A stretch of 64,000 bases of DNA from Ammoniphilus oxalaticus. GTDB lineage: Bacteria; Bacillota; Bacilli; Aneurinibacillales; RAOX-1. Position 1 is the first letter of the stretch. Each line of letters begins with the position of its first letter. The notes beneath the pieces are model-generated. The model saw only the letters and a list, made by a program, of their open reading frames with translations, was not told where the DNA came from and ran no database searches. Shown one piece after another: positions 5,023 through 27,521 of this stretch. The DNA lies in the NCBI RefSeq assembly GCF_003609605.1, contig NZ_MCHY01000006.1, forward strand, positions 434,001 to 498,000, written 5' to 3'. Both the position numbers and the translations under genes were made by a program.

Positions 5023-5066
5023 AAAGCCATAGACCTCCTGAAATTAGAAGTCTATGGCTTTTTTTA
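5023..5066. terminator. Bidirectional terminator between the ABC exporter and hybrid kinase 1
   Basis: A 12-bp stem, AAAGCCATAGAC (5023-5034) with GTCTATGGCTTT (5050-5061), has A/T runs on both sides and lies between convergent genes. Confidence 0.8.
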
Positions 5067-8060
5067 TATTTTTGGGGAGGCATCTAAATCTTTAGGAACG
5101 ATAAATTCTACGGTTGTTCCTTTGCGCGGTAAACTTTTGATTGTTAGGCCCGATCCGAAAATCCTTTTAATTCGATTATTTGTATTGGGCAGGCCAATTC
5201 CGGCTCCGCTTTTTCGTTGGGCGTCAAGTAGGTTGTTTACTTTTTCGGCATCCATTCCGATCCCATCATCGACGATTGCAATCCGCGCATGTGTTTCCTC
5301 ATCTGTTACACGGATCCAAACGGTTCCACTCTTCCGCTTTTTCAGGACGCCGTGTTGGACTGCATTTTCAACTAACGTTTGGATCGAGAGCGGTGGTACT
5401 TTGATATGGATCGATTTATCAATATTCCACTCAACTTGCAGGCGATCCCCAAACCTTTCCTTTTCGATATAAACATAGGATTTGACAAGCTCAAGTTCGT
5501 CTTGAATTGGAATCAGTTGCTGCAGGTTATCTTCTTTAAAACTTCGATATAAATATTTGCCAAACGTATCGAGCAAACGGATCATCCGATCAGGGTCAAT
5601 TTGGCTCAGACTCGCAATCGTATTTAAGGTGTTAAATAAAAAATGGGGACGAATTTGCGCCTGAAGCCACGCCGATTCCATCGCATGTCGTTCGATGATG
5701 GACTTTTTGAGATCGATCAAGGCTACACTGCGAGACTTTAATTCCACGGCATTGATCGGTTTTATTACGTAATCGTTCGCGCCAATCGTAAAAGCAACAT
5801 TGATTTCGGTCATTGCGCCGCGTGATGTTAGTAATAGGATCGGTAGCTCAAGTAGTGTGTATCGTTTTCGAATCCATTTGGTCAATTCATAACCAGACAT
5901 ATAGGGCATCAGGCCATCGATAATGATCAGGTCCCATTCCAACGCATGTATTAATGGAAGCGCTTCTTTGCCGCTCATTACTGTGACAACATTATAAAGT
6001 TCAGCTGGAAATAGTCCTTCAATCACCCGTAAACTCCCCGGATCATCATCAACGATCAAGATGTGAATGAGATCTACGGAGAATTGTGTCTGATTGTCTT
6101 CGACGATTTGTTCATATGCAGACTCTTCATCATCTTCATTATCTTGATCATGACTTAACGGCAAGCTAAAAGTGAACACCGTTTCTTTATCGGCTTCTGA
6201 TTTTATAGCCAAGCGTCCGCCATGTAATTCAATCAGCTGTCTGGATACGTCCAATCTGAGCCCAAAAGCGTCCCGATTGAGTTGTTCCTGTTTGTTTGCA
6301 ATCTCTCCGTTATCCCGCACATAGATGATAGCCATCTGATTGCAGACTTCTGCATGAACTGTGACTTTTCCCGCTCCCGTATTCGCGATCACCGTTTCTA
6401 TTAGATTAAAGCAAATCTGGTTGAGTCTGCTTTCATCGGCTAACACACGAGGAAATTGCGGGGGAACAGTTGAGACAAGTTCAACTTGCTTCCCATCAGC
6501 CAAATGTTTCACGAGATCAAACACTCCGGCGATTACTGCTTGAATGCTCGCGTTTTTCGGGTGGACTTGAATCATATGCTCTTTTAAACGTGTGAAATCT
6601 AGCAAATCATAAAGGACGTAGGACATCCCCCTGCCAATATTTATCAAATAATTTAGATCGCTTCGGTCGCGGTAAGTAAATGAACTTTGCTTGCGGTCAA
6701 AAAGCGTTTGGGCGATCGTTGTCATCTTATTCAATGGACTCCAAAGTTTATCCGTGCTTTCCACTAAAAATTCGTCTTTCAGTTGATCGGCCCGTTTCAG
6801 CTCATCGACCAGTTCAACGACTTGCCGATTTTGTCGGTAGAATCGTTTGAACCAAAAAACAGCAAAACCGAGAAATGCGCAAAGGTAATCGAAAGGATAG
6901 AAAGGGATTTGTAGGCCGTGAACATCCTTAATAAGTCCCCAGACAATTCCAGAAGTCGTACTGACGACGACGATCGCAATGAGAAACGACTCATCCTTGA
7001 ATTGGAAGTATTCTTTCAAAGCGAGCGTAATAACAGATAGGAATGAGACAAAGTAAAGCGAAAAAAACAGAACATCCACTTGCATAATCGCTTGAATGGG
7101 CAGCAGAATGATTAGGGCCGCGCCAATTCCATAGGCGATTGTAAACCACCGAAAACGCTTGTATTGTTTATAATTCGTGAGCAGCATTCTCATTAACTGC
7201 ACGAGGAAGAAAGGCGCTGCGAGATAGATGAATTCCCTCAGTTTGAACGACCAGGCATAATTTAATTGAAGCCAATCGAAGGTGGCGTTGCTATACGTCA
7301 CGAGCTCATCGATCGCTGGAAAAGTGAATCCGAGTGTAAAAAATAGAAAAATTTTATCTCGATGAATCAAAATATAGATAAGAAGGCTGTATATACTATG
7401 CAGAAAAAGGATGGTTACCATACTGATGAGTAGAATCTGAGCAAAACTTTGTTCTTTCGCGATTACCTCTGTGTAACTAAATTGAAGCGGTTTTGCAATT
7501 GAAATCCCTTTCATCGTATCAAAGTTGGACACGTGTAATACGAGGTCTATCTCGCCTTTTTCCGCTGAAAATGAAGCGATATATGGACTTCCTTTTCCGA
7601 TATGGTGTTCGGGAGTTGTCGCGACAACACCAGAATTTCCTTTTAAGTTTCCGTTTACAAACAAAGCGGTTGCCGTGTTAATAGATGGAATTTGGATTGA
7701 GTAGACAGCATCAGAGTCTGACGCTTCATCCAGCTGGATTTTTAAATGATACGTTCCAAACGGCTCTCCGTCTTTTTTATCTAAATTCTTCCCTATGCTC
7801 CTTATTTCATTGTCTCTCGCTAGGTTCAGTTTGTTAGGTTCGACCAATTGTTCGGGATAAAACACCCACTCTCCATCTAACGTAATCGAATCCTCATCCA
7901 GCGTAAAACCCCGCAAGTCCAACATTCCATTTTTGGCAAAAGGTTGTTCAGCCGGTGTATGGTAATTTAACCACAACAATCGAAAACTCGTTAAAACAAC
8001 GATCATGATTAATAGAATAAGGACCGCTTTCGATTTATCTTTTGAAATGTTTAAGCTCAT
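5064..8060 (-). CDS. Hybrid histidine kinase 1: 7TMR-DISM sensor, degenerate HisKA/HATPase, receiver, LytS-type kinase
   Basis: In this 998-residue protein an N-terminal helix (11-31) is followed by an extracellular beta-rich 7TMR-DISM-type domain (about 40-195), seven membrane helices (about 205-405), a HisKA/HATPase-like module (about 425-635), a receiver (about 665-785, phospho-acceptor Asp715 in IIIDGLMP) and a LytS-type module with His806 in QIRPHFLFN plus a second HATPase (about 890-990). The first H-box reads STDKLWSPL, with Asp437 where the paralogue at 24453-27521 has the phosphorylated His of TSHELRNPL. Its N- and G-boxes (FNLIETVIAN, VRDNGEIAN) are also degraded. I infer a pseudokinase scaffold feeding a functional C-terminal kinase. 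It is divergent from the adhesin gene. Confidence 0.9.
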   Translation of the reverse strand: MSLNISKDKSKAVLILLIMIVVLTSFRLLWLNYHTPAEQPFAKNGMLDLRGFTLDEDSITLDGEWVFYPEQLVEPNKLNLARDNEIRSIGKNLDKKDGEPFGTYHLKIQLDEASDSDAVYSIQIPSINTATALFVNGNLKGNSGVVATTPEHHIGKGSPYIASFSAEKGEIDLVLHVSNFDTMKGISIAKPLQFSYTEVIAKEQSFAQILLISMVTILFLHSIYSLLIYILIHRDKIFLFFTLGFTFPAIDELVTYSNATFDWLQLNYAWSFKLREFIYLAAPFFLVQLMRMLLTNYKQYKRFRWFTIAYGIGAALIILLPIQAIMQVDVLFFSLYFVSFLSVITLALKEYFQFKDESFLIAIVVVSTTSGIVWGLIKDVHGLQIPFYPFDYLCAFLGFAVFWFKRFYRQNRQVVELVDELKRADQLKDEFLVESTDKLWSPLNKMTTIAQTLFDRKQSSFTYRDRSDLNYLINIGRGMSYVLYDLLDFTRLKEHMIQVHPKNASIQAVIAGVFDLVKHLADGKQVELVSTVPPQFPRVLADESRLNQICFNLIETVIANTGAGKVTVHAEVCNQMAIIYVRDNGEIANKQEQLNRDAFGLRLDVSRQLIELHGGRLAIKSEADKETVFTFSLPLSHDQDNEDDEESAYEQIVEDNQTQFSVDLIHILIVDDDPGSLRVIEGLFPAELYNVVTVMSGKEALPLIHALEWDLIIIDGLMPYMSGYELTKWIRKRYTLLELPILLLTSRGAMTEINVAFTIGANDYVIKPINAVELKSRSVALIDLKKSIIERHAMESAWLQAQIRPHFLFNTLNTIASLSQIDPDRMIRLLDTFGKYLYRSFKEDNLQQLIPIQDELELVKSYVYIEKERFGDRLQVEWNIDKSIHIKVPPLSIQTLVENAVQHGVLKKRKSGTVWIRVTDEETHARIAIVDDGIGMDAEKVNNLLDAQRKSGAGIGLPNTNNRIKRIFGSGLTIKSLPRKGTTVEFIVPKDLDASPKI

Positions 8061-12860: not shown

Positions 12861-13424
12861 TTGAGGCTGTTATCGACTTTTATGATTATTGTCGGTATCG
12901 CGCTGCTTGGTTATAGCGGCATTCAAATGTGGTCCTCAAACGAGCAACAACAGGCTGCATTATTAAAAGCGGAGCAAAGGATTATGGACCAAGCAAAGAG
13001 TGAAGGTCCTGTTGTTTTTGACCCGAAAATAGGCGAAGAAATCGGTGTGCTCTCATTGCCAAAACTAGACAGTACATTGCCAATTATTGAAGGTGTTGAC
13101 GAATCTGAGTTAAGCAGAGGTGTGGGTCATTATTATGGTACCTCTTTTCCGGATGACAAGGGGCAGATTGTATTGTCTGGTCATCGAGATACTGTTTTTC
13201 GCAGGATTGGCGAGCTGGAAATTGGCGATGAACTGGTCGTAAACATGCCTTACGGCAATTTTACTTATATTATTGAAGAAACCGAAATTGTCGAGGCTGG
13301 TGATACAACCGTGATTCGACCCGAACAAGATGAGGAATTGTTAACAGTCACGACTTGCTATCCTTTTCGGTACGTGGGCGATGCTCCTGATCGCTACATT
13401 ATATATGCTAAGCCCAAAAGTTGA
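12861..13424 (+). CDS. Class D sortase
   Basis: This 187-residue transpeptidase starts at TTG 12861 directly behind a strong GGAAAGGAGGGGG. One N-terminal membrane helix (about 3-23) anchors it outside-facing. The sortase fold carries the catalytic His108 in LSGHRD, Cys166 in TVTTC and Arg178 in APDR. The TxTC context and short length fit class D (YhcS or B. anthracis SrtC type), whose known substrates often carry LPNTA-type signals. The gene directly upstream encodes an LPNTA protein, so I infer that it attaches that adhesin to peptidoglycan. Confidence 0.92.
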   Translation: MRLLSTFMIIVGIALLGYSGIQMWSSNEQQQAALLKAEQRIMDQAKSEGPVVFDPKIGEEIGVLSLPKLDSTLPIIEGVDESELSRGVGHYYGTSFPDDKGQIVLSGHRDTVFRRIGELEIGDELVVNMPYGNFTYIIEETEIVEAGDTTVIRPEQDEELLTVTTCYPFRYVGDAPDRYIIYAKPKS

Positions 13425-13769: not shown

Positions 13770-15077
13770 ATGTGGCCGTTGAAAAGAAATAGAAACCAAC
13801 TTAGCAATTTGGATTGGGTGAAAAGTGTCAACGATCAGACTGTCAGCATTGATTTGCAACAGTATCATGAAATAAGAAAACAGATGGAAATGATTCAATT
13901 TGATAAAAAAGAATTGCAGGTGATCAAGAGTCTTGAGTCGATTGTGGAAAAGAATATCGAGACGATTGTATCCGCATTTTACAATACGATTTTAGCGATT
14001 CCTCATTTAAAGGAAATAATTGATGAACACAGCTCGATTGATCGCCTACGGAATACGTTAAGCGGGCATATGATTGAAATGTTTAGCGGAAAAATAGATG
14101 AGGCGTTTATTCAAAAAAGGTTGCGTGTGGCTCAGGCGCACGTGCGAATCGGGTTAGAACCGAAATGGTATATCGGGGCTTTTCAAAATTTGCAAAGCGC
14201 CCTGTTTGATATCGTGAATCAGCATTTAACGAACAGAGAGGACAGTGTTCTCGCCGGAAAAGCGATTTCAAAAATATTAAATTTTGAACAACAGCTCGTG
14301 TTAGCAGAGTATGAAAAAGAGCATCTAAGATTAAGAGAGATGCAGTACGAAAAAGTAAAAGAGGAGTTAAAATCGAAGATTAGCGCGACAAGTGAAGAGT
14401 TAGTGGCCTTAACAGATCAAACGAACGCATCGGTTCAACAAGTTTCTGCTAATGTAAATGAGGTCAATCAAGCGATCCAGGATAGTTCTCATCTTTCAAA
14501 AGAGACGGAACGTCTAGCGAATTACGGTCAAGGTATGGTAGAAGGACTTGCGGGCCAAATGGAATCGATTGCGGGAGGCGCGGATCAAATGCAGGAATTT
14601 GTTCGAAAATTGGATGAATCTTCCCTTGAAATTAGGCAAATTATCTTGCTCGTTCAACGGATTGCGGATCAAACGCACCTATTGGCGTTGAATGCGGCCA
14701 TTGAAGCGGCAAGAGCGGGGGAACATGGCAGAGGATTTTCAGTTGTAGCTGATGAAGTCCGAAAGCTAGCCGAAGAATCGAAAGGTTCTGTTCAGGAAAT
14801 TACGGAATTGATTCAAGCGTCATTTGAACTGACCTCGGAAGTTACGAAATCTATCGCGGAGGTCCAAAATATTGTGGAAGCAGGCCTGCAAGGGTCGACA
14901 GCTACGCAAACGACATTTGATGAGATTCTATCATCAATGAGTCAAAGCATGGACCGTATTAAACAGGTCGAACGGGATGCGCAAGAGCTTGTCCAAGTTG
15001 TGGAAGGGATCAGTCAGGCAACAACGGAAGTAGCCGAATCCGCGGAATCTTTAAATCATTTGGCAACGAATATGTAG
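13770..15077 (+). CDS. hemAT: HemAT-like globin-coupled chemotaxis transducer
   Basis: The 435-residue soluble protein (432 in B. subtilis HemAT) has an N-terminal sensor globin (about 40-195) and a C-terminal methyl-accepting signalling domain. The proximal heme ligand is visible as His124 in [13 protein letters not shown], and Tyr71 matches the distal B10 tyrosine of HemAT. The tip hairpin [14 protein letters not shown] and the following [18 protein letters not shown] are classic MCP motifs. The family senses oxygen for aerotaxis through CheA/CheW. Here it sits between sortase and biofilm regulator genes. The start ATG has GGGGAGAGGG upstream. Confidence 0.93.
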
Positions 15078-15088
15078 CGATTGGCAAG

Positions 15089-15117
15089 AGACCGTCATCA
15101 AAGATGACGGTCTTTTA
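15089..15117. terminator. Bidirectional terminator between hemAT and the response regulator
   Basis: An 11-bp stem AGACCGTCATC/GATGACGGTCT with a 3-nt loop and a T-run on the + side. It lies between convergent genes and reaches the regulator stop codon. Confidence 0.85.
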
Positions 15118-16251
15118 TTTTGGTTTAACCACTTCTGTTCTCCACTGCTCATACCACTTTTTAACATGCGGACTAACTGCTAGATCCAACTCGGCTAATG
15201 CTATTTTCATTTGATTGTATTGTCGCTCAACTTCAGAGAACGCCCCGAAGGAAGCGTAACCTATCATTAATTGAAAATGAGCCCGTTCATCCTCCGCTTT
15301 GTACGAACAAATTTTTGTGTACCAATTTTTGGCCTTTTCAAAATTGTCGTGTTCATTATAGTGATCGGCGATCATGTAAGCATACTGTAACCAGCGCTGC
15401 TCCAAACGATACCGTTCGGGTTCTGCCCATAAATAATCATAATCTTGTAGGTAGGCCCCTGTGTAAAAATTCAACGCCGCTTCATATTCAGTGAGGGTTT
15501 CCTGGGTAAGAGGTGGAAGGGATGTAAGTTTTTCTTCCCACTCTACGGCATCAATGTGGACATCGTTGAGAAGTAAAATGTAGCCTTCCGATGTGTTTTT
15601 AATTGAACAATGCTCACCAAAATGACTGAGTGTTTTTCGGATATGATAGATCGTTGTGTATAGCTGTGAAAAAGCCCGTTGTTCATCGACATCTGGCCAT
15701 AAGAGCTCAATGAGTTCGGATTTTTGGGCCGTTTTCTTTTGATGATGCAGCAAATAAAGGAAACATTCTTGCGCTTTGGACGTACGCCATTGAATGACTT
15801 TGCGCGGGCTGTTGCCTGAGGTATTGTATGTCAACTTTCCAAATAGATTAAATTGCAGTTTGCTCTCCCGCGCAAGGGGACGACTTCGATCTTGTAATTG
15901 CGTCTTGATGCGGGTGATTGTTTTTTGTAGGCGATCCGTTTGAGCGGGCTTTAACACATAGTCCAATGCATTCAGTTCAAATGCCTGCACCGCATATTCA
16001 TGAAAGGCGGTTACAAAAACGATGGCTAAATTCTTGTTTACTTCAAGTAATTGTTCGGCTAATTCAAGGCCGTTTTTTCCAGGCATTTCAATATCTAAGA
16101 ACACAAGGTCAATATTTTGTAGTAGCTTCTCGCGCTCAGCGATCTCTAAATTCGTTAATTTCTCAACTATGACGATATTGCTAATTTTATTTATTTGATG
16201 TTCTAGAAAATCTAAGGCAAGTGGTTCGTCGTCAACAAGAATCGCCCTCAT
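15115..16251 (-). CDS. Response regulator with SARP-like winged helix and BTAD output domain
   Basis: The 378-residue protein has an N-terminal receiver (1-120) with acidic residues in VDDEP and phospho-acceptor Asp53 in FLDIEMPG, then a winged-helix DNA-binding domain (about 130-225) and a bacterial transcriptional activator (BTAD) helical domain (about 230-370, WEEKL and the tetratricopeptide-like DNFEKAKNWYTKIC). This combination links a two-component receiver to SARP-type promoter activation. It lies between two hybrid kinases with LytS-type modules, its likely phospho-donors, and is divergent from the polysaccharide operon. Three nearby promoters carry SARP-style 11-bp direct repeats, so it probably activates adhesin, polysaccharide operon and diguanylate cyclase together. 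Confidence 0.9.
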   Translation of the reverse strand: MRAILVDDEPLALDFLEHQINKISNIVIVEKLTNLEIAEREKLLQNIDLVFLDIEMPGKNGLELAEQLLEVNKNLAIVFVTAFHEYAVQAFELNALDYVLKPAQTDRLQKTITRIKTQLQDRSRPLARESKLQFNLFGKLTYNTSGNSPRKVIQWRTSKAQECFLYLLHHQKKTAQKSELIELLWPDVDEQRAFSQLYTTIYHIRKTLSHFGEHCSIKNTSEGYILLLNDVHIDAVEWEEKLTSLPPLTQETLTEYEAALNFYTGAYLQDYDYLWAEPERYRLEQRWLQYAYMIADHYNEHDNFEKAKNWYTKICSYKAEDERAHFQLMIGYASFGAFSEVERQYNQMKIALAELDLAVSPHVKKWYEQWRTEVVKPK

Positions 16252-16403: not shown

Positions 16404-17486
16404 ATGTTGCTAAAGTGGATTTTGCGAGTTAGTTCTATCCTTCTTATTGTTTTGTTGGTTGTAATTAGGGTGAATTTGGTAAAAGAGACGGAGCAGCAAG
16501 ATATCTTGGAACGACCAATCCTTCAAACAGAGCAATTTATCTTTAATCATTTGCTTGATGAAGCGGGTATGATCCGTACAGATTTTAAGGGAAATCCAAA
16601 TGGAAACCTCATATTATCTGAATCGATGGGGTTATGGTTAGAATATCTTGCGCTAAAAAAGGATAATTCTCTTTTTGATTCAGCTTACCTTGCGTTAAAG
16701 AAAGACTTTATTAGTAAAGAGAATCTCGTGATGTGGAAAGTGGAAGGAAGCGTTAGGGCGGATACGAATGCCTTGATAGATGATTTGCGGATTATTGCTT
16801 CTTTATTTCGCAAAGGGGAACAAATGAATCGGAGCGATTATATCAAGCAAGCCATACGCCTGTCTAAATCTATAATGAAATATAATCGGCAAGACGATTA
16901 TTTTGTTGATTTTTATGATGTGAGATACAAGTATCAGAACAAAGAATTGACTCTTTCTTATCTAATTCCAAAGGCCTTTCAATATATGGTTAATTACGGG
17001 GTAATTACAGTCGATGAACTCGATCAACTTCGGGACTTTTTACGCAATATGCCTACGGATAATGGATTTTATCCAAAGTATTATTCTGTTGAAGATAATC
17101 GATTTCATTTTGATCAAGAAATTAATTTAATAGATCAATTGTATACTGTGATTCACCTAGAAGGATTCGGAATATCGACCGATTCATTTTTCAAGTGGAT
17201 TAAAGATATCTATCTCCAGGAAAACGTCATATATGGTCGATATGATCGGTTGAGTAAGCAACGGATAGTTGAATATGAAGCCCCAGCTGTTTATGCGTTG
17301 TTAGTTATTTATAGTCTAGAAAAAAATGAACGCGCGTTTGCTAAGAGTGTTTATGAACGGATGACTGAATTGCGATCGGACGATCCGATGTCTACGTATA
17401 AGGGGGGGTATGTATTCTCTAATTCAACCCATTCTTTTGATAATTTATTGGCATTGGTGGCGGAGAGGAAATTATTGAATGAATAA
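16404..17486 (+). CDS. ydaJ: Glycoside hydrolase family 8-like protein of the exopolysaccharide operon (YdaJ-type)
   Basis: This 360-residue protein has one N-terminal membrane helix (about 5-23) and an all-alpha extracellular domain. LILSESMGLWLEYL resembles the catalytic-acid region of GH8 enzymes (Glu73 in SES), and RADTNALIDDLRI resembles the second catalytic region (Asp120). In cellulose-type secretion systems such an enzyme trims or releases polymer. It is the first of five overlapping genes in the order of B. subtilis ydaJKLMN; the next gene overlaps it by 8 bp. The promoter has the SARP-like repeat. Family assignment is by motif and context, not by search. Confidence 0.8.
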   Translation: MLLKWILRVSSILLIVLLVVIRVNLVKETEQQDILERPILQTEQFIFNHLLDEAGMIRTDFKGNPNGNLILSESMGLWLEYLALKKDNSLFDSAYLALKKDFISKENLVMWKVEGSVRADTNALIDDLRIIASLFRKGEQMNRSDYIKQAIRLSKSIMKYNRQDDYFVDFYDVRYKYQNKELTLSYLIPKAFQYMVNYGVITVDELDQLRDFLRNMPTDNGFYPKYYSVEDNRFHFDQEINLIDQLYTVIHLEGFGISTDSFFKWIKDIYLQENVIYGRYDRLSKQRIVEYEAPAVYALLVIYSLEKNERAFAKSVYERMTELRSDDPMSTYKGGYVFSNSTHSFDNLLALVAERKLLNE

Positions 17487-18330
17487 AATTTTAAATAAAA
17501 ATAATCTTTTGTTTATTTTGCTAACGAGCATCTTATTATTAGTGCTCAGTTTTGGTTTGTTTTTATTTCCGCGGGGACAAGGCGGGGCCATCCTATATAC
17601 ACTGGGATTGTTCATCGGTCTTGTCGGAGTGATAGGGGGCGCCGTTGCGGCTTTAGGCTTTACATTGCTTTTATTTTTTATGATTGGCAGCGTTATGTTT
17701 TGGACAGCTTTTACTGAAACTCCATTATTTAATATAGACATTTCATTTTTCGTCATTATCGTGTGGATGATCGGCATGCTGCTTATTTCTTTGCTTACGG
17801 GGCAAATGTCATCCCAACTGAAAGCAATGCACGATGAGAATCAATCATTGCGCGAGCAGATCAGAACGTTAGTTGCAATTGATCCGACCACTGGCTTTGA
17901 TAATAAAGAGCGGATGTTGGTTGAACTTGAATTAGAATTCAATCGTTCTAAACGATATAAGCAAACATTTACCTTTGTATTAATGAAAATCAATCATTTA
18001 GATCAATTTGAAAAATTGTACGGAGTAAAAGAAATGAACAGACTGTTCCAACATTTTGCTAAAGGGATTCATCGTTGTGTAAGAGCGAGCGATCAAAAAT
18101 ATCGTCCGGAAAAGGATATGTTTGCTTTGATCTTGCCTTATACGGAAATTAGTGATGTGAAAGTTGTGATCCAAAAGTTAGAAAAGGAACTAAAAGTATA
18201 TCAGCTGGAAAATCGAAAATATACGACGTTAACAATTGAGTATGGGTACATCGGTTTGGATGAAAGAATTAGCCAGTTTTCAAATATTTACGAGTTAGCG
18301 AAAGAACAGGTGTCTGCCCATGTTTCGTAG
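17479..18330 (+). CDS. ydaK: Membrane c-di-GMP receptor with degenerate GGDEF domain (YdaK-type)
   Basis: The 283-residue protein has three to four membrane helices (about 8-108) and a cytoplasmic GGDEF-like domain (about 125-283). The active-site motif is EKDMF (211-215) instead of GGDEF, so it should be catalytically dead. The inhibitory-site motif RASD (202-205) is intact at exactly the canonical distance, five residues before the motif. That is the pattern of a c-di-GMP-binding receptor, as in Listeria PssE and B. subtilis YdaK. It overlaps the genes on both sides (8 and 11 bp). I infer that it activates the glycosyltransferase complex when c-di-GMP is high. Confidence 0.88.
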   Translation: MNKILNKNNLLFILLTSILLLVLSFGLFLFPRGQGGAILYTLGLFIGLVGVIGGAVAALGFTLLLFFMIGSVMFWTAFTETPLFNIDISFFVIIVWMIGMLLISLLTGQMSSQLKAMHDENQSLREQIRTLVAIDPTTGFDNKERMLVELELEFNRSKRYKQTFTFVLMKINHLDQFEKLYGVKEMNRLFQHFAKGIHRCVRASDQKYRPEKDMFALILPYTEISDVKVVIQKLEKELKVYQLENRKYTTLTIEYGYIGLDERISQFSNIYELAKEQVSAHVS

Positions 18331-20059
18331 ATTCTTGTCATTGTTGCTTGTTTCTTTGTTAGTTTTGCCTATGATGGCCAATGGAGCGCGCGCGAAACAA
18401 CAGCTCGAAGCTTTACAAAATGATGATGTACGAGTCTTGCTTATCTATTCTAATGAAAATAGCGCTGAAAGTGTGGCCGTTCGAAAATTAGATTTATTGC
18501 TTCATCATTTTACAAAGCATGTTCGTTTAGTCGCTGATTTTGCGCTCACAGAACAAATGCTGAAAGACGCTACGCACGTTATTTATTACGGGGAGACGGA
18601 GCGGCAGTTAAATAAAGAAGTGGTTTCTCTAATGAAGGGCATTAAAAAACCATTGATTATGGTTGGCGAAAACTTTGAACAGTTCTCTTCTTTTAATAGG
18701 CGGATGGGGGCAATTTTAGCGGTAAATCAGATTAGTCAGCAGGACTCGGCAACCTATTTTCAATCATCGCCGCTCTTAATTAAGCCCATTCATGTTACTG
18801 AGGAGATGGAGGTCATGTTGTATGGGGTTAAAGAGGAAGAACGCGTTCCGCTGTTTGTTCAGTATGAAGATGAGTACGCGCTTACTTCAAGTGGGGTCTT
18901 AGAAGAATTAGTCTACTATTATATTGCGGAAATACTCCATGAGATACTACCGAATAATCATGCCGATGAACATCTGGCTTATCTTCGCCTGGAAGATATT
19001 CACCCGATGTCCGATCCGAAAAAATTAAAAGATGTTGCCGCTTATCTGGAGGAGCGAGGCATTCCTTATCTACTCGTTGTGATCCCTGTTTATATTACAC
19101 CTAACACGGGGGAGCGAGTGTATTTTGCCGATTCTCCAGAGTTAGTCGAAGTTCTGCGAGAATTACAAAATAAGGGAGGGACAGTCATTTCCCACGGATA
19201 TACGCACCAATACCGAGACAGTGAAACGGGAGAAGGATTTGAATTTTGGGACGTAGTAAATGACCAATTTATTATTGAATCAAATCCGAATAATTCGATT
19301 GAAACGATTAGGACGATCGATCAATTTCCAAACGAAGAAGAATATCGGGCCTATATTGAACCGCTTAAAAAAAAAGAGAGAAAGTATGTAAAAAAACGAA
19401 TAAAAGATTCAATTCATGAGTTGGCATCGCATGAATTGTATCCATTAGCTTTTGAAGCCCCGCATTATACGATGTCTCAACAAGGATATGAGATCGTTGC
19501 AGATTATTTCACGTCAATTTTTGGTCAAATTCAATTAAGTGATGAAAATTGGGAGCAAATGAGCGCCCCACCATACCTCTCTTCCGCTCATCTTTTGCGC
19601 GGGATGGCTCTTTATCCTGAAACGATTGGGTATGTGGATGGGACAGTGGAAGGATCTATGGAAAACCAAAAGCGATTAAATCAAGTATTAATTGTTAGGG
19701 ATAGCGTGATCGGTGGATTTTATCATCCTTATTTAGGCGTAGAACCTTTGCCCGAATTTTTATCCCTCTATGAGAAGGTTCCAAATTTAAAATGGATCGA
19801 TTTTAAAAAGCATTCTAATGCGGTAAAGACTTCAAGGGTTCAGATCTCAACTGAAAAAACAGGGACGATTCATATCAAAAATGACATAGCGCGATGGGAA
19901 AATATATGGAATCATTCAGAGCTATCCAGTCTTGAAAAAGTTTTATGGGGATTAACCACAATTGTTCTTTTATTCATCCTCTTGTTTTTGGCATTTTCCT
20001 TTTATTTGAGAACACAGGTAAAAAAACGATTGTTTAAGGAGAGAGACACGATTGGCTAA
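18320..20059 (+). CDS. ydaL: DUF2334 / polysaccharide deacetylase-like membrane protein (YdaL-type)
   Basis: The 579-residue protein has a signal peptide (about 1-25, ending near GARA) and a C-terminal membrane helix (about 540-565), so most of it lies outside the membrane. The central part shows DUF2334 features: RLEDIHPM, a strand LLVVIPVYITP and VISHGYTHQY, resembling the metal-binding surface of deacetylase-like barrels. The start overlaps ydaK by 11 bp. By position it is likely to modify or help export the operon's polysaccharide. Deacetylase activity is inferred only from the fold family. Confidence 0.82.
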   Translation: MFRRFLSLLLVSLLVLPMMANGARAKQQLEALQNDDVRVLLIYSNENSAESVAVRKLDLLLHHFTKHVRLVADFALTEQMLKDATHVIYYGETERQLNKEVVSLMKGIKKPLIMVGENFEQFSSFNRRMGAILAVNQISQQDSATYFQSSPLLIKPIHVTEEMEVMLYGVKEEERVPLFVQYEDEYALTSSGVLEELVYYYIAEILHEILPNNHADEHLAYLRLEDIHPMSDPKKLKDVAAYLEERGIPYLLVVIPVYITPNTGERVYFADSPELVEVLRELQNKGGTVISHGYTHQYRDSETGEGFEFWDVVNDQFIIESNPNNSIETIRTIDQFPNEEEYRAYIEPLKKKERKYVKKRIKDSIHELASHELYPLAFEAPHYTMSQQGYEIVADYFTSIFGQIQLSDENWEQMSAPPYLSSAHLLRGMALYPETIGYVDGTVEGSMENQKRLNQVLIVRDSVIGGFYHPYLGVEPLPEFLSLYEKVPNLKWIDFKKHSNAVKTSRVQISTEKTGTIHIKNDIARWENIWNHSELSSLEKVLWGLTTIVLLFILLFLAFSFYLRTQVKKRLFKERDTIG

Positions 20060-21308
20060 TACTTTATTTCTACTTTCTCTAGTCGTGATCTGGGTGATGC
20101 TTCTGTATCATATGTTTCTCATGTTAGGTGGTTATTTACATTTCACACGTTTTGAACGTGTCATCCCTCAATGGAAAAAGAAGTTAACTGATTTGCCAAC
20201 AGTAAGCATTTTAATTCCCGCACACAACGAGGCGGTAGTTATTGAAAAAACATTAAGGGCGATGATTCGCCTTGAATATCCTAAAGATCGACTGGAAGTC
20301 GTCGTGATTAATGATAATTCCACTGATAAAACAGGAGAAATTGCTCGCAAAATCGCAATGGACCATCCTTTCATAAAGGTAGTCGACACGATGCCGCCTC
20401 GCGCTGGAAAAGGGAAATCAAGCGCGTTGAACCAAGGCTTTGAGATATCGACTGGAAAGTACATTATTGTTTACGATGCCGATAATACACCGGAAAAAAA
20501 AGCAGTCTATTATCTCGTAATGGGTCTGGAAAACGATCAGAAAGCTGGCGCAATTGTAGGGAAGTTTAGAGTTAGTAATGCAAAGAGAACGTTGCTAACG
20601 CGATTTATTAATATAGAAACGATTTGTTTTCAATGGATGGCCCAGGCGGGGCGATGGTTCTGGTTTAAAATGACGACAATACCGGGAACAAATTTTGCGA
20701 TTCGTCGTTCAATCATTGAAACTTTAGGCGGGTGGGATGAACAAGCGCTTGCAGAAGATACAGAGTTGTCTATTCGTGTCTATAATCTCGGGTATTCTAT
20801 TCGATTTTTTCCGGCAGCCATTACGTGGGAACAAGAACCGGAAACGTGGAAGGTTTGGTGGCGACAACGAACGAGATGGGCGAGAGGGAATCAGTATGTT
20901 GTTGTAAAGTTTATGCGGACGTTTTTAAGTTTGGAAAGAAAGATAGTGGCTTTCGACTTAATTTATTTTTTCTTTACGTATTTTTTGTTTTTTTCGGGCG
21001 TGATTGTTTCCAACATTATTTTTATAACGAATTTATTTATTGATCTTCAGTTAACGATCGGCCTCGTATCGATCATTTTATGGGTTCTGGCATATTTTTT
21101 ATATGTTACTGAGGTCTTTATAACACTGAGTATTGAACAAACCGAGATGACATTAACTAACTTTTTCATAGTGTTATTAATGTATTTCACCTATTCACAA
21201 TTGTGGATTATATTGGTGGCATATTCTTTGATTTTGGAAATCAAACGCGCATTATTAAGACAGGAAGTGCAGTGGTATAAAACAGAGCGATTTGACTCTG
21301 AATCATGA
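20052..21308 (+). CDS. ydaM: Processive family 2 glycosyltransferase, synthase subunit (YdaM-type)
   Basis: The 418-residue protein has an N-terminal membrane helix, a GT2 catalytic domain and at least three C-terminal helices. Visible motifs are SILIPAHNE, VVINDNSTDKT, the metal-binding YDADN, the acceptor-site AEDTEL and QRTRW, which together make the D, DxD, D, Q-x-x-R-W pattern of BcsA-like processive synthases. It lacks a PilZ domain, so c-di-GMP control must come from a separate subunit, namely the upstream receptor. It overlaps ydaL by 8 bp and is followed 18 bp later by the BcsB-like gene. The polymer is not known; Listeria's related Pss system makes a ManNAc-Gal polymer. Confidence 0.9.
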   Translation: MANTLFLLSLVVIWVMLLYHMFLMLGGYLHFTRFERVIPQWKKKLTDLPTVSILIPAHNEAVVIEKTLRAMIRLEYPKDRLEVVVINDNSTDKTGEIARKIAMDHPFIKVVDTMPPRAGKGKSSALNQGFEISTGKYIIVYDADNTPEKKAVYYLVMGLENDQKAGAIVGKFRVSNAKRTLLTRFINIETICFQWMAQAGRWFWFKMTTIPGTNFAIRRSIIETLGGWDEQALAEDTELSIRVYNLGYSIRFFPAAITWEQEPETWKVWWRQRTRWARGNQYVVVKFMRTFLSLERKIVAFDLIYFFFTYFLFFSGVIVSNIIFITNLFIDLQLTIGLVSIILWVLAYFLYVTEVFITLSIEQTEMTLTNFFIVLLMYFTYSQLWIILVAYSLILEIKRALLRQEVQWYKTERFDSES

Positions 21309-21326
21309 TAGGCGGAGTGTGCGCAT

Positions 21327-23486
21327 ATGAGATATAAAATGAATAAATTGTTTCAGAGATTAACTATATTAGTACTAAGTTTGCTTCTAATCCTTCCTTC
21401 AATAACTACAGAGGCTGTTGGCTTTCCGTTGCAGGGTAGAACGATCCAATTAAATGACGATATCTTTCAAAGCGACGGAAGTGAAAGTTCGACAGTGTCT
21501 ATAATCAATTTGACAGCGCAAGATCAAGTGTTGGAAGGAATGGCTGATAACGTTGAGTTTTTCTATGAAATCCCATCAGGATCGGGTTTAGATGGAAGTA
21601 TGTTGAATTTAATTGTCCAATATTCTGAACTTCTACAGGAAGGTTCTACGATGACAGTTTACATTGATGATAAACCATTCCATAGCGAAGCTTTACAAAT
21701 GGATCGACAGGCAATGGAGATTAAAAGACCTTTGCCAACTGAAGCGCTCAGTGAAGGTTTTCATACGATTAGAGTGAATTTTTATGGCCATATATCGGAA
21801 GAGCTTTGCGCTGATTTGGAGAATCCTGCAAATTGGTTGATGATTTTAGCGGAGAGCCATCTCGTAATGCATACGAATGATCGCTCAGATAGAATCAATA
21901 TGTTACAAGATTATCCATATCCATTTATTCAAAGACAACAGGCTAAAACCGTTCAATCGGTCCTCGTGATTCCGGATGAAGCTTCTGCGTCAGTCATACT
22001 GGCGGCATTAAAACTAACAAATTACTTAAGTCATCATGCTAGCGATCAGGAAGAAATAATGATTGTAAGAGAATCAGAGTTAAATATGATATCTACTAAT
22101 ATTATTGCATTGGGAAAACAGGAGGATTGGACGGGGATCATACGAAAAGTATTTAATGCGGCGAATGTAAAAGTCGAGAATGAAAATCTTGTAGTAAGTA
22201 ACTATCTCATCAGAGCTTCTGCTGAATCGAAACAAATTATGTTTATTACGGCATTAAAAGATCAAATCATTTCAGATAAGATTACTGCGCTAACAACCGA
22301 TCATTTTGTTAAACAATTAGCAGGGGATCAACTTTCGATTGATAAGATACCAACTCTAGCTAAGGAGGAAAAGGCAGAACGTCACGTATTTCAAGAGATA
22401 GGTATTGCTAATCAAACATTGACAGAAGCGAGAAAAAAATCTTTGAACTATTTTTTTCAGTTACCTTCCTATGTTGATGTAGAACAAGATGGTACATTGC
22501 ATTTAAAAATTAGAGCATCTAAACCTTTAGCAAGATCAGAGCGTAGAGGAAATGAAGACGGTGCTGAGCTAGTCGTCATTATAAATGAAATTCCACATTC
22601 AATTGATATTCGAGAACAACTACAAGAATCCGAAGAATCTTTTGTTAATGTGGAGATTCCGATCGAAGCTGAGCAAATCAAGAAAGCTCCCTACTTAACA
22701 ATTCAATTTGAGGCAATTGGACTTGGCGAACCTAAAATTTGTGTTCCTGTTGAGGATGGAAGATGGATTTTTGTACATGAAGAAAGTTATTTACAATTTG
22801 GCACTCGTGAATATAGAACAGAAAGTAATTTTAAAACATGGCCTGATCCGTTCGTTTCGATTGACAGTAATGACGAAACAGTTTTTCTGTTGCCGAATGA
22901 TGTCCCTACCGATTCCCTCAACCAATTGCAAAGGATTATATTGAGAAATAATGATCGCAATTTTTTGGATAACGTAGAAATTATATTTGAAAAAGAGTTA
23001 AATGAAACCAATTTATTAGGAAAACATGTCATTATCTTCGGGAGATTTGGACTTAATCTACTTTTAACCACCTATCAAGATCAGTTAATTGTTGATGTTG
23101 AAAATAACAGGTTAGATCTGTCCTCATTCCAATTTGTTAATGAAACAGCTAAGCATGTAGCCTGGCTACAGCCATCAGTGTGGGATGATAGCAAAATCAT
23201 GGCAGTGTTTGCTCCCGTGCAGGCGCAGACAACTGAACCGTTTTTAATTGATGGTTTGATTCGGTATATAAATACAAATCGACCCAACACAAATATAATT
23301 GTTGAAAATAATAACGGACAAATCTTTACACATCAATTGAAAGAAGGTGGAACGGTTGCGATACCTGACTCAACTAAACGAGATAAAGGCCAAGTTAAGC
23401 TACTGCCACTGATAATATTTGCTGGGATCTTCATTTTTAGCATGGCAATTTTTATTTTATTGTATCAGAAAAAGCGTTCATCCTAA
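21327..23486 (+). CDS. ydaN: BcsB-like exopolysaccharide secretion subunit (YdaN-type)
   Basis: The 719-residue protein has a signal peptide (about 1-31), a large extracellular beta-rich region and one C-terminal membrane helix (about 692-713) with a short basic tail. This is the layout of BcsB, which guides the nascent glycan from the synthase. Segments such as VNFYGHISEELCADLENPANW fit the cellulose-synthase-subunit B family. It is the last gene of the operon. No convincing terminator follows; the next gene has its own repeat-type promoter. Confidence 0.85.
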   Translation: MRYKMNKLFQRLTILVLSLLLILPSITTEAVGFPLQGRTIQLNDDIFQSDGSESSTVSIINLTAQDQVLEGMADNVEFFYEIPSGSGLDGSMLNLIVQYSELLQEGSTMTVYIDDKPFHSEALQMDRQAMEIKRPLPTEALSEGFHTIRVNFYGHISEELCADLENPANWLMILAESHLVMHTNDRSDRINMLQDYPYPFIQRQQAKTVQSVLVIPDEASASVILAALKLTNYLSHHASDQEEIMIVRESELNMISTNIIALGKQEDWTGIIRKVFNAANVKVENENLVVSNYLIRASAESKQIMFITALKDQIISDKITALTTDHFVKQLAGDQLSIDKIPTLAKEEKAERHVFQEIGIANQTLTEARKKSLNYFFQLPSYVDVEQDGTLHLKIRASKPLARSERRGNEDGAELVVIINEIPHSIDIREQLQESEESFVNVEIPIEAEQIKKAPYLTIQFEAIGLGEPKICVPVEDGRWIFVHEESYLQFGTREYRTESNFKTWPDPFVSIDSNDETVFLLPNDVPTDSLNQLQRIILRNNDRNFLDNVEIIFEKELNETNLLGKHVIIFGRFGLNLLLTTYQDQLIVDVENNRLDLSSFQFVNETAKHVAWLQPSVWDDSKIMAVFAPVQAQTTEPFLIDGLIRYINTNRPNTNIIVENNNGQIFTHQLKEGGTVAIPDSTKRDKGQVKLLPLIIFAGIFIFSMAIFILLYQKKRSS

Positions 23487-24414: not shown

Positions 24415-24453
24415 TAGAAGAGATAGGGTTATCCACATCTCTTCTACTATTTT
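24413..24453. terminator. Bidirectional terminator between the cyclase and hybrid kinase 2
   Basis: A perfect 12-bp stem AGTAGAAGAGAT/ATCTCTTCTACT (24413-24424, 24437-24448) followed by ATTTTTAAT, between convergent genes. Confidence 0.88.
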
Positions 24454-27400
24454 TAATCTCTCGGAATTTGAAATCGAACGGTTGTACCATGATCGGGCTT
24501 GCTTGTAATCTCTAATCCCATTCCATATTGTTTGATTAGCCGATGATGGGTGTTCGTGATTCCAAGCGATGGAGATTCATGTGGTTGTTTGGCAAGCAGT
24601 TCTTGAACTTTCGTTGGACTTATTCCGACGCCGTCATCGGTAACGGTGATCAAATAAAAAGTTTCTGCTTCATTCACATTAATCTCAATTGTTCCGCCCC
24701 GAATTCGTTGAAGTACGCCATGCCTCACAGCATTTTCGACAAGGGGTTGAATCGAAAGAGGCGGAAGTTGAAAATCGAGTCCTTCCGGGACCTTCCATTC
24801 GATTCTCAAGCGATCGCCAAATCGCTCTTTTTCGATGTATAGATACGATTCGATCAACTCAAGTTCGGCTTGGAGTGATACGCGACTTCGTAAGTTTTGA
24901 ATATCGAAGCTTCTCCTTAAGTAATTTCCAAATTCATGAAGGAGCTTCGTCATCCTCGTAATATCGATTTCGCTTAACGATGCGATCGTGTTCAAGGTGT
25001 TAAATAGAAAATGCGGTTGTATCTGAGCTTGTAACCAGGCAGCTTCTAATCTTAGTTGTTCATCGACGGATTTTTTAAGCTCGGTCAACGCATTTACACG
25101 CGCCCGCAGTTCCAAGGCATCTAACGGTTTTGCGACATAATCATTGGCTCCTGATTGGAATCCAGCGTTAATATCTTCCGTTTGATTGCGGGCCGTCAAC
25201 AGGAGGATCGGCAATTCAAACGCGGTCCATTGTCGACGGATTATTTGCGTTAGTTCGTAACCGGACATGTTCGGCATCATCACATCGGAAATGACCAAAT
25301 CGAAATCCCTCTTTTTAATCCAAGCGAGCGCTGACTGACCGCTCTGCGCGGTTACGACCTCATAATCCGCCTCCAGAACTTGTTTAATGACTTGCAAATT
25401 CACGGGATCATCATCAACGATTAAAATGGAGGGCTGATTTCCGAGCGCATCCGTTTGATCTGGCGTCGGCGACGAGAAGGCTACTGTGGGTTCATTCTCG
25501 AGGGTAACAGCTACCTCATTGTAATCTATTCTTTCGTCGCCAACAAAATCAGCCAAGGGCAGGGTAAACCGAAAGGTCGAACCTTCGCCAACTTTTGATT
25601 CGATAGAAATTGTTCCTCCATGTAGTTCAACTAATTCTTTACAAATATGCAGCCCCAATCCGATGCCGCCTTCATTCGGGGACGTTGCGTTTTCTGCTTG
25701 TTTATACCGTTCAAAAAGGTGTTGAATCGTATGTTCATTTATGCCTCGTCCGGTGTCAATCACGCTTATTGTCGCTAAACGACGATCGTGAGTCGCTTGA
25801 ACGGTGATAGATCCTTCTTTCGTATATTTAATCGCATTGTGCAACAAATTGAATAAAATTTGAATGAGTCGATGTTCATCCGCGTTCACTTTTGGAAAGG
25901 ATTTCGGAATCGCGACAGTTAACGCAATGTTTTTTTCTAAATTCATGAAGCGAATCATGTCGATGACACCTGTCGTCACAGCTGGTAAATAAATGTTTTG
26001 CTTACGAAGTTTGATTTGTTTTTCGTCCAAACGTGAGATATCGAGCAGATCATTGAGTGTAAGGGTCATGTGTTGGCTAATTAAAAGCAATAGTTGCAGG
26101 TTGTTTTTCGTCTTCGGATGTAAATGCTCTTGTTTATCACGCAAAATGGTTTGGGTGATGTTCATGATCCCATGCAGTGGGTTTCGTAGTTCATGCGATG
26201 TATTCGCTAAAAATTGGTCTTTTATTTTATCGGCCTGTTGCAGTTCCTTGGTCTGTTTTTCATTCAACTGAACGATTCGTAGATGACGCTTGAATAAAAA
26301 GCCCGCAAAGGCAAAGATGCCAATCAGATAGTCGAACGGGTAGTACGGTATTTGTGTGAGGCGTAGATTGATCGCGACCCCCCACAGTACATTATATAAA
26401 TTAACGATGTTGGAAACGAAAATAAAAATAGCGTCCCGATTCCCACTCTTGAGTTGTTTCAGTACAATAATAAAAATATAGCTGTATGAAAAGAGGTTCA
26501 TCAGCATGATCAAAGCTCCGACTGCATTAACAAAGGAATTTGGCAGAATCAAAAGCGCTGCGCTGGCAATCGTGTAAGTGAACAGTAATCCGCGTAAAAG
26601 GGCGCCTTTCAATTGAAACACGGATTGATTAAACTTCAGTATGAAAAAGACGGTTCCGGCAAAAGTAAGGTATAACCATTTCAAAGACCACTCGACATTA
26701 ATAGGGAGCAAAGATAACAAGATTTTATCATCATCGACTAAAATAGATAGCGACGCAAAAAGGAGTACTCCGCCAAAGTAAAGAAGTTCTGGCTGTCTGT
26801 TTCGACCCATCGCGTATAAGACAAAAGCGTACAGGCTGTGCGTAAGCAGGATGCCTACGACGATCCATTGCATTAGATGAGAAAAAGAGACTTGTCGATC
26901 AATCGCTTTGGCTGTTCCAAATGTAATGGATTCCAACATTCCTCCGTCTACCGTATTTTCGAAATTAGCGACATGAATCACAAGCTCCACTCGATTAGAC
27001 TCGGGTTTAAAAAATTCCTTATACTTTCCTGTTCGGCTTTCGTATTGATCCGCGGTTTTGGCTGGAACGCCTATTTGCATAAGCAGTTGTTCATTTTGAT
27101 AGACGCGCGCGGCGGGGATATCTTTTATATGGATCCCGTACAGTTGGTTGTCGGAGTGATTGTTAGGGAGTTGGATCGTTAGTAAATAAGAGCCAAAGTG
27201 GATCGGCTTACTTCCTTTTGAAACGTGAGACCAAGGACCAGGCGCTCTAATTAGCTCGCTAGCTAGATGAGCATGCGCGTTTGGGTCGATAAATTTGTTC
27301 GGATAAAACAACCATTCTCCATCAAGCGACGCGGTCTGCCTTTCTGACATTGCCCATTCGCTTAAATCTAGTAAACCGTTTTGCGCTTGTGGATGATCAT

Positions 27401-27521
27401 CGGGAGCTTGATGGTATTGGACCCAAGCGATACGAAAGCCTGATAGTAAAAAAAGAAACAAGATCATTCCGATCCATAGTTTTCCAAAGTTAAGCGGTTT
27501 TGACGCAGCCATCGGGGTCAT
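24453..27521 (-). CDS. Hybrid histidine kinase 2: 7TMR-DISM sensor, HisKA/HATPase, receiver, LytS-type kinase
   Basis: The 1022-residue paralogue of the kinase at 5064-8060 has the same domain order, with all key sites intact. It has a first membrane helix (about 14-34), an extracellular DISM-type domain (about 45-205), seven helices (about 212-411), a HisKA with His443 in TSHELRNPL, a HATPase (about 545-655, IQILFNLLHNAIKYT, VIDTGRGI, GLGLHICKEL), a receiver with Asp746 in VISDVMMP and a LytS-type module with His837 in QIQPHFLFN plus a second HATPase (about 925-1020). It is convergent with the cyclase. Together with kinase 1 it brackets the polysaccharide locus and probably phosphorylates the BTAD regulator. 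Confidence 0.93.
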   Translation of the reverse strand: MTPMAASKPLNFGKLWIGMILFLFLLSGFRIAWVQYHQAPDDHPQAQNGLLDLSEWAMSERQTASLDGEWLFYPNKFIDPNAHAHLASELIRAPGPWSHVSKGSKPIHFGSYLLTIQLPNNHSDNQLYGIHIKDIPAARVYQNEQLLMQIGVPAKTADQYESRTGKYKEFFKPESNRVELVIHVANFENTVDGGMLESITFGTAKAIDRQVSFSHLMQWIVVGILLTHSLYAFVLYAMGRNRQPELLYFGGVLLFASLSILVDDDKILLSLLPINVEWSLKWLYLTFAGTVFFILKFNQSVFQLKGALLRGLLFTYTIASAALLILPNSFVNAVGALIMLMNLFSYSYIFIIVLKQLKSGNRDAIFIFVSNIVNLYNVLWGVAINLRLTQIPYYPFDYLIGIFAFAGFLFKRHLRIVQLNEKQTKELQQADKIKDQFLANTSHELRNPLHGIMNITQTILRDKQEHLHPKTKNNLQLLLLISQHMTLTLNDLLDISRLDEKQIKLRKQNIYLPAVTTGVIDMIRFMNLEKNIALTVAIPKSFPKVNADEHRLIQILFNLLHNAIKYTKEGSITVQATHDRRLATISVIDTGRGINEHTIQHLFERYKQAENATSPNEGGIGLGLHICKELVELHGGTISIESKVGEGSTFRFTLPLADFVGDERIDYNEVAVTLENEPTVAFSSPTPDQTDALGNQPSILIVDDDPVNLQVIKQVLEADYEVVTAQSGQSALAWIKKRDFDLVISDVMMPNMSGYELTQIIRRQWTAFELPILLLTARNQTEDINAGFQSGANDYVAKPLDALELRARVNALTELKKSVDEQLRLEAAWLQAQIQPHFLFNTLNTIASLSEIDITRMTKLLHEFGNYLRRSFDIQNLRSRVSLQAELELIESYLYIEKERFGDRLRIEWKVPEGLDFQLPPLSIQPLVENAVRHGVLQRIRGGTIEINVNEAETFYLITVTDDGVGISPTKVQELLAKQPHESPSLGITNTHHRLIKQYGMGLEITSKPDHGTTVRFQIPRD

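Follow-up and report, generated by a model that had tools for sequence, protein, structure and literature searches.

The window analysed here, the whole stretch of 64,000 nucleotides from Ammoniphilus oxalaticus, encodes a hybrid sensor kinase of 998 residues (P1) whose first kinase module is dead, together with an intact paralogue (P2). We consider it slightly more probable than the contrary that this module is a maintained pseudokinase, coupling the sensor of P1 to a receiver and LytS-type output whose regulator is shared with P2; the dead half of the protein probably relays or tunes a signal rather than producing one. Known regulatory histidine pseudokinases, such as RetS and DivL, are for the most part isolated examples. 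The His-less group that includes P1 is a conserved multi-genus set with graded losses, the histidine being lost in all members and the ATP site being kept in some only, and no literature on it was found among open-access papers. Genomes that hold no intact partner, together with natural chimeras, allow testing what a dead kinase module does, and the group also allows testing how a receiver with no donor in cis gets charged. An adhesin and sortase pair is tied to the pathway, suggesting a control of surface attachment.

Domain organization of P1

5064..8060, minus strand: P1, hybrid sensor kinase of 998 aa with a dead first module; ORF with an ATG start
6819..8060, minus strand: P1 sensor (residues 1-414), with an extracellular beta-sandwich at about 45-196 and putative 7TMR-DISM-like membrane helices
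6141..6818, minus strand: P1 module 1 (residues 415-640), a pseudo-DHp and a degraded ATPase
5715..6071, minus strand: P1 receiver domain (residues 664-782), phospho-acceptor Asp715
5085..5714, minus strand: P1 LytS-type His_kinase and HATPase (residues 783-992), His806

P1 is composed of a sensor, a DHp-like helical pair with a first HATPase domain, a receiver, a LytS-type His_kinase domain (PF06580) and a second HATPase domain. As a sequence-only reading had claimed, the H-box histidine, which is His443 of TSHELRNPL in P2, is replaced in P1 (STDKLWSPL) by Asp437 (codon GAT at 6750-6752). The adjacent Glu is replaced by Lys438 (AAA); in a Pfam search HisKA gave no match in P1 and matched P2 at 3.4e-12. 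That reading had also described the N- and G-boxes of the first ATPase as degraded, which is correct for the N-box, where Thr556 replaces the Asn, for G2, where Arg602 replaces the second Gly, and for the lid, G1 being partly kept (Asp583 and Gly585). The spacing between G1 and G2 is only 13, compared with 27-28 in intact members, so that much of the ATP lid of this module is gone. With neither the His nor the Glu, an incomplete ATP site and a shortened lid, module 1 is, judged by its residues, incapable of standard autophosphorylation. The same reading took Asp715, His806 and the second ATPase to be kept, and the residues agree: the receiver is complete, with D671 and D672 (the acidic pair), D715 (GAT at 5916-5918), T745 and K767, and the LytS module retains H806 (CAT at 5643-5645), N899, D931, G933 and G935, with Pfam matches to PF06580 at 1.4e-22 and to HATPase_c at 6.2e-28. 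Among solved structures, the best sequence match of this C-terminal module is GanS (6swj).

In the AlphaFold2 model of residues 408-998 (mean pLDDT 75.7, pTM 0.43), module 1 has a DHp and CA fold, and its listed Foldseek matches include ShkA, HK853, RetS, GacS and DivL (4q20); the likeness to RetS is that of a fold common to all HisKA kinases and is no proof of mechanism. Residues 1-418 are predicted (pLDDT 84.3, pTM 0.78) as a beta-sandwich followed by a helical membrane part, and the beta-sandwich resembles the N-terminal domain of GH2 glucuronidase (Z 12.1, 2.6 A over 126 residues), a likeness of fold only. The membrane domain of 7TMR-DISM sensors (PF07695, cut-off 29 bits) scores 54.9 in P2 and 25.3, below the cut-off, in P1. 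RetS has a sensor of this 7TMR-DISM type.

The His-less orthologous group

Searches covered 61 relatives, 398 genomes of the class and named genomes, and yielded an orthologous group that has 25 rows including P1 (two pairs of rows being one genome reached by two routes each), from Sporosarcina, Paenibacillus faecalis, Domibacillus, Bacillus, Siminovitchia, Lysinibacillus and further genomes. Neither the module-1 His nor the next Glu occurs in any of the 25, the former position being occupied by Q in 19 and by D, K, R or E in the others. A sequencing or assembly error at Asp437, for which the sequence-only reading had pointed to orthologues as the check, is refuted, because Q, D, E, K and R stand there in independent genomes; the same variety makes it unlikely that Asp437 acts as a phosphomimic. 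Eight other module-1 positions (W440, N444, M446, T448 and four more) are invariant or nearly invariant within the group, and intact members hardly ever share these residues. The receiver is retained even without any His in cis to supply it with phosphate (Asp715 and Lys767 in 25/25, Thr745 in 23/25), and the LytS His and the second ATP site are invariant. The equivalent of Thr745 is Pro in two His-less members (L068:9944-12940 and L085:9893-13039).

Among 101 distinct family members, the module-1 His has been lost in 27, and the receiver Asp and the LytS His in none, which marks the LytS half as the constant output. Given this asymmetry of loss, output probably comes from the LytS half, and module 1 is probably a maintained regulatory pseudokinase. 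Between close pairs of the group (Nei-Gojobori; P1 itself is too diverged from all its relatives for this measure), dN/dS is 0.02-0.15 in the dead DHp and 0.11-0.24 in the first ATPase, values like or below those of the other domains of the group, indicating that the dead module is maintained by strong purifying selection. Of the 25, 15 still have an intact first ATP site, and its loss appears in seemingly separate lineages (P1 with P. faecalis; the Bacillus REN10-type; genome G025; the L. mangiferihumi-type), so the tree suggests that the module-1 His was lost first and the ATP site afterwards, more than once.

The histidine is also lost outside the group, in L034, L166:2685-5264, L178, L179 and L182 (Y, Q, Q, K and K, respectively), and, with these five sequences, one origin for all His-less modules is not likely. 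The closest relatives of P1 are found in Sporosarcina and Paenibacillus (about 60%), those of its own family and order reaching 39% or less; by these sequence comparisons, P1 may possibly have been acquired by horizontal transfer.

The intact paralogue and chimeric relatives

24453..27521, minus strand: P2, intact paralogue of 1022 aa (His443, Asp746, His837)
L065:9953-13057, L067:11191-14250, L069:9983-13114, L071:1369-4548 and L073:9908-13048: chimeric kinases

P1 and P2 share 37% identity over 1011 columns. Five His-bearing kinases from Ornithinibacillus, Lederbergia, Amphibacillus and Oceanobacillus combine a P1-type sensor with a P2-type intact core. The whole-protein tree, in which the His-less group is one clade (0.93), is misleading, and trees of the separate segments (quick searches, with SH-aLRT support only) were used instead. 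In the tree of residues 1-414 the chimeras cluster with the P1 group (support 100; p 5e-8 in the AU test against a single His-less clade), and in those of module 1 and of receiver plus LytS they group with P2 and L045 (97-99; AU test against grouping with P1, p about 1e-4). Mean identities follow the same pattern, the chimeric sensor being 55% identical to the P1 group against 26% to P2/L045, and module 1 being 42% against 60%, with the crossover at about residues 400-440. These fusions suggest that signals from a P1-type sensor can be passed through a P2-type core to a regulator of the same kind.

Regulator and surface genes

15115..16251, minus strand: response regulator (REC, Trans_reg_C and BTAD domains), the only BTAD protein of the genome
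8262..12767, plus strand: LPxTATN-type cell-wall adhesin with Collagen_bind and SpaA repeats and an LPxTATN-like sorting signal
12861..13424, plus strand: class D sortase, LPxTATN-specific

The BTAD regulator is located between the two kinases, 7 kb from P1, and is adjacent to neither of them in the window; it is likely to be their shared output. The nearest regulators found are 52 and 49% identical (Ornithinibacillus and Amphibacillus), each with a chimeric kinase beside it or near it. The lone BTAD regulator, its surroundings and the chimeras support a pathway shared by P1 and P2. Both the adhesin and the sortase lie between P1 and the regulator, and this linkage makes the adhesin a likely target of the pathway. 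In 12 of 17 genomes, some of them related to one another, a sortase gene lies within 13 kb of a family kinase or family regulator, against 0.55 expected. The adhesin's neighbour is the intact kinase in P. faecalis and the dead-module kinase in Bacillus REN10-type genomes.

A chemoreceptor of the protoglobin-MCP type (HemAT-like; 13770-15077) is encoded between the sortase and the regulator, and upstream of the regulator is an exopolysaccharide-like cluster (16404-23486) that codes for a GGDEF protein, a DUF2334 protein, a PgaC-like glycosyltransferase and a BcsB-like protein. Counterparts of the GGDEF gene adjoining P2 stand next to family kinases in other genomes. A short ORF at 28577-29149 matches the first 61 positions of the GGDEF profile and the first 90 of the EAL profile, and looks like an internally deleted diguanylate cyclase/phosphodiesterase. 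With the adhesin, the sortase and the exopolysaccharide surroundings, the theme of the pathway is likely to be the control of surface attachment.

Genomes without a His-bearing partner

A His-less kinase is the sole member of the family in G144 (a 100% complete genome of 3.7 Mb) and in G025, and G392, G398 and G407 contain two or three members each, none of them His-bearing, so a universal need for an intact paralogue is ruled out. The sequence-only reading had proposed that P1 may act as a pseudokinase partner, for example by receiving phosphate from P2 or dimerising with it. Its pseudokinase part is well supported by the group-wide loss of His and Glu and by the purifying selection on the dead domain, and a partnership is plausible in this genome, given the single BTAD regulator between the kinases, the chimeras and the RetS and DivL fold matches, but it does not hold as an obligation for the group, because of these five genomes.

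In G144 a stretch of 94 residues (L152:3183-3527), adjoining the BTAD regulator, is 82% identical to the C-terminus of an intact kinase; this remnant marks, as read from its sequence, a recent natural deletion of such a kinase at that place. One acidic residue of the receiver is gone in G025 (D671 to G). Receivers depart from the complete set in 4/27 His-less and 1/74 other members (Fisher p 0.017, kinship not corrected). A kept ATP site and the presence of a His-bearing paralogue appear linked (13/14 against 5/9; Fisher one-sided p 0.056, kinship not corrected), which is suggestive only.

Proposed role and alternatives

In the mechanism that we favour, P1 would be a receptor in the membrane that signals through its C-terminal receiver and LytS-type kinase to the REC-BTAD regulator, and module 1 would be a dimerising, signal-transmitting pseudokinase placed between the sensor and this output. 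Asp715, lacking a module-1 His donor in cis, would be charged in trans, in this genome most simply by His443 of P2; the LytS His806 would then phosphorylate the BTAD regulator, and this regulator in turn probably governs the adhesin and sortase genes nearby and, with them, surface attachment. The five genomes that contain His-less members only imply that feeding by a paralogue is not general and that other donors would be needed there. An extension of this mechanism, unlikely when all its parts are taken jointly, presents the His-less group as a class of co-receptors of Bacilli that connect additional sensors to a partner hybrid kinase: a His-less member with an intact first ATPase would phosphorylate the partner's His across a heterodimer, P1-like members would have lost even this cross-phosphorylation and have a receiver fed only in trans, and recombination would have joined a sensor of this kind to an intact core again.

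P1 could instead act mainly in the manner of RetS, which drains phosphate from GacS, acts on it as a phosphatase and blocks its autophosphorylation (PMC5992135). It would form hetero-oligomers with P2 through the pseudo-DHp and thereby block or alter the autophosphorylation of P2, Asp715 would serve as a phosphate sink for His443 of P2, and the LytS output of P1 would be secondary. We regard this as possible and rather doubtful: one regulator serves two kinases, the P1-type sensor is fused to a P2-type core in four genera (Ornithinibacillus, Lederbergia, Amphibacillus and Oceanobacillus), and four of the five receiver departures fall among the 27 His-less members, including that of the partnerless G025, but the invariance of the LytS His and of the second ATP site in the group argues for an output half that is still working, no His-bearing partner exists in five genomes, and P1, with D-K-L-W-S, has lost the HExxT/N phosphatase motif on which RetS relies. 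The opposite simplification, P1 as a plain LytS-type sensor kinase that acts alone and keeps module 1 and the receiver as structural leftovers, is quite improbable. It would fit the genomes that have His-less members only, above all G144, which retains the dead-module protein when only a C-terminal remnant is left of the intact kinase by the regulator; it is opposed by the conservation of Asp715, Lys767 and Thr745 in the orthologues, by the eight newly fixed positions of module 1 and by its low dN/dS. We give next to no credence to P1 being a decaying pseudogene or a sequencing error: the module-1 ATP site does look eroded, but the reading frame is fully open, the loss is conserved in a group of 25 members under purifying selection, and the second half is intact.

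Comparison with known systems

The P2-type hybrid kinases of Bacilli (HisKA-HATPase-REC-LytS) have the same five-part architecture and type of regulator as P1, at 37% identity, and differ in that their first module is intact. The C-terminal PF06580 and HATPase module is shared by GanS and other LytS/YesM-type kinases, although the solved GanS construct has no HisKA-HATPase-REC block before the matched module. RetS of Pseudomonas aeruginosa is, like P1, a hybrid kinase with a degenerate first ATPase and a retained receiver Asp (PMC5992135), it regulates a paralogous kinase and attachment, and the fold matches of module 1 include its kinase region. RetS, devoid of G-boxes, cannot autophosphorylate; its receiver is a phosphate acceptor for GacS, its HExxT motif serves to dephosphorylate GacS, and it blocks the autophosphorylation of GacS (PMC5992135). 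It differs from P1 in having two receivers and in keeping the HisKA His and the HExxT motif, in place of which P1 has DKLWS; P1, for its part, is deprived of the His, the Glu and the T/N residue, and bears a complete LytS kinase after its receiver. An evolved ChrS pseudokinase has been shown to promote signalling via its paralogue HrrS (PMC9491836). Since P1 has neither the His nor HExxT, only the phosphate-acceptor and allosteric routes of the RetS and ChrS types remain for it, in addition to its own LytS output. DivL of Caulobacter crescentus is likewise a histidine-kinase fold kept for regulation that has no phospho-accepting His; unlike P1, it has a Tyr at this position and neither a receiver nor a second kinase, and it acts on CckA (in part after PMC9491836). 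P1 is probably a variant of the RetS- and DivL-like regulatory kinases.
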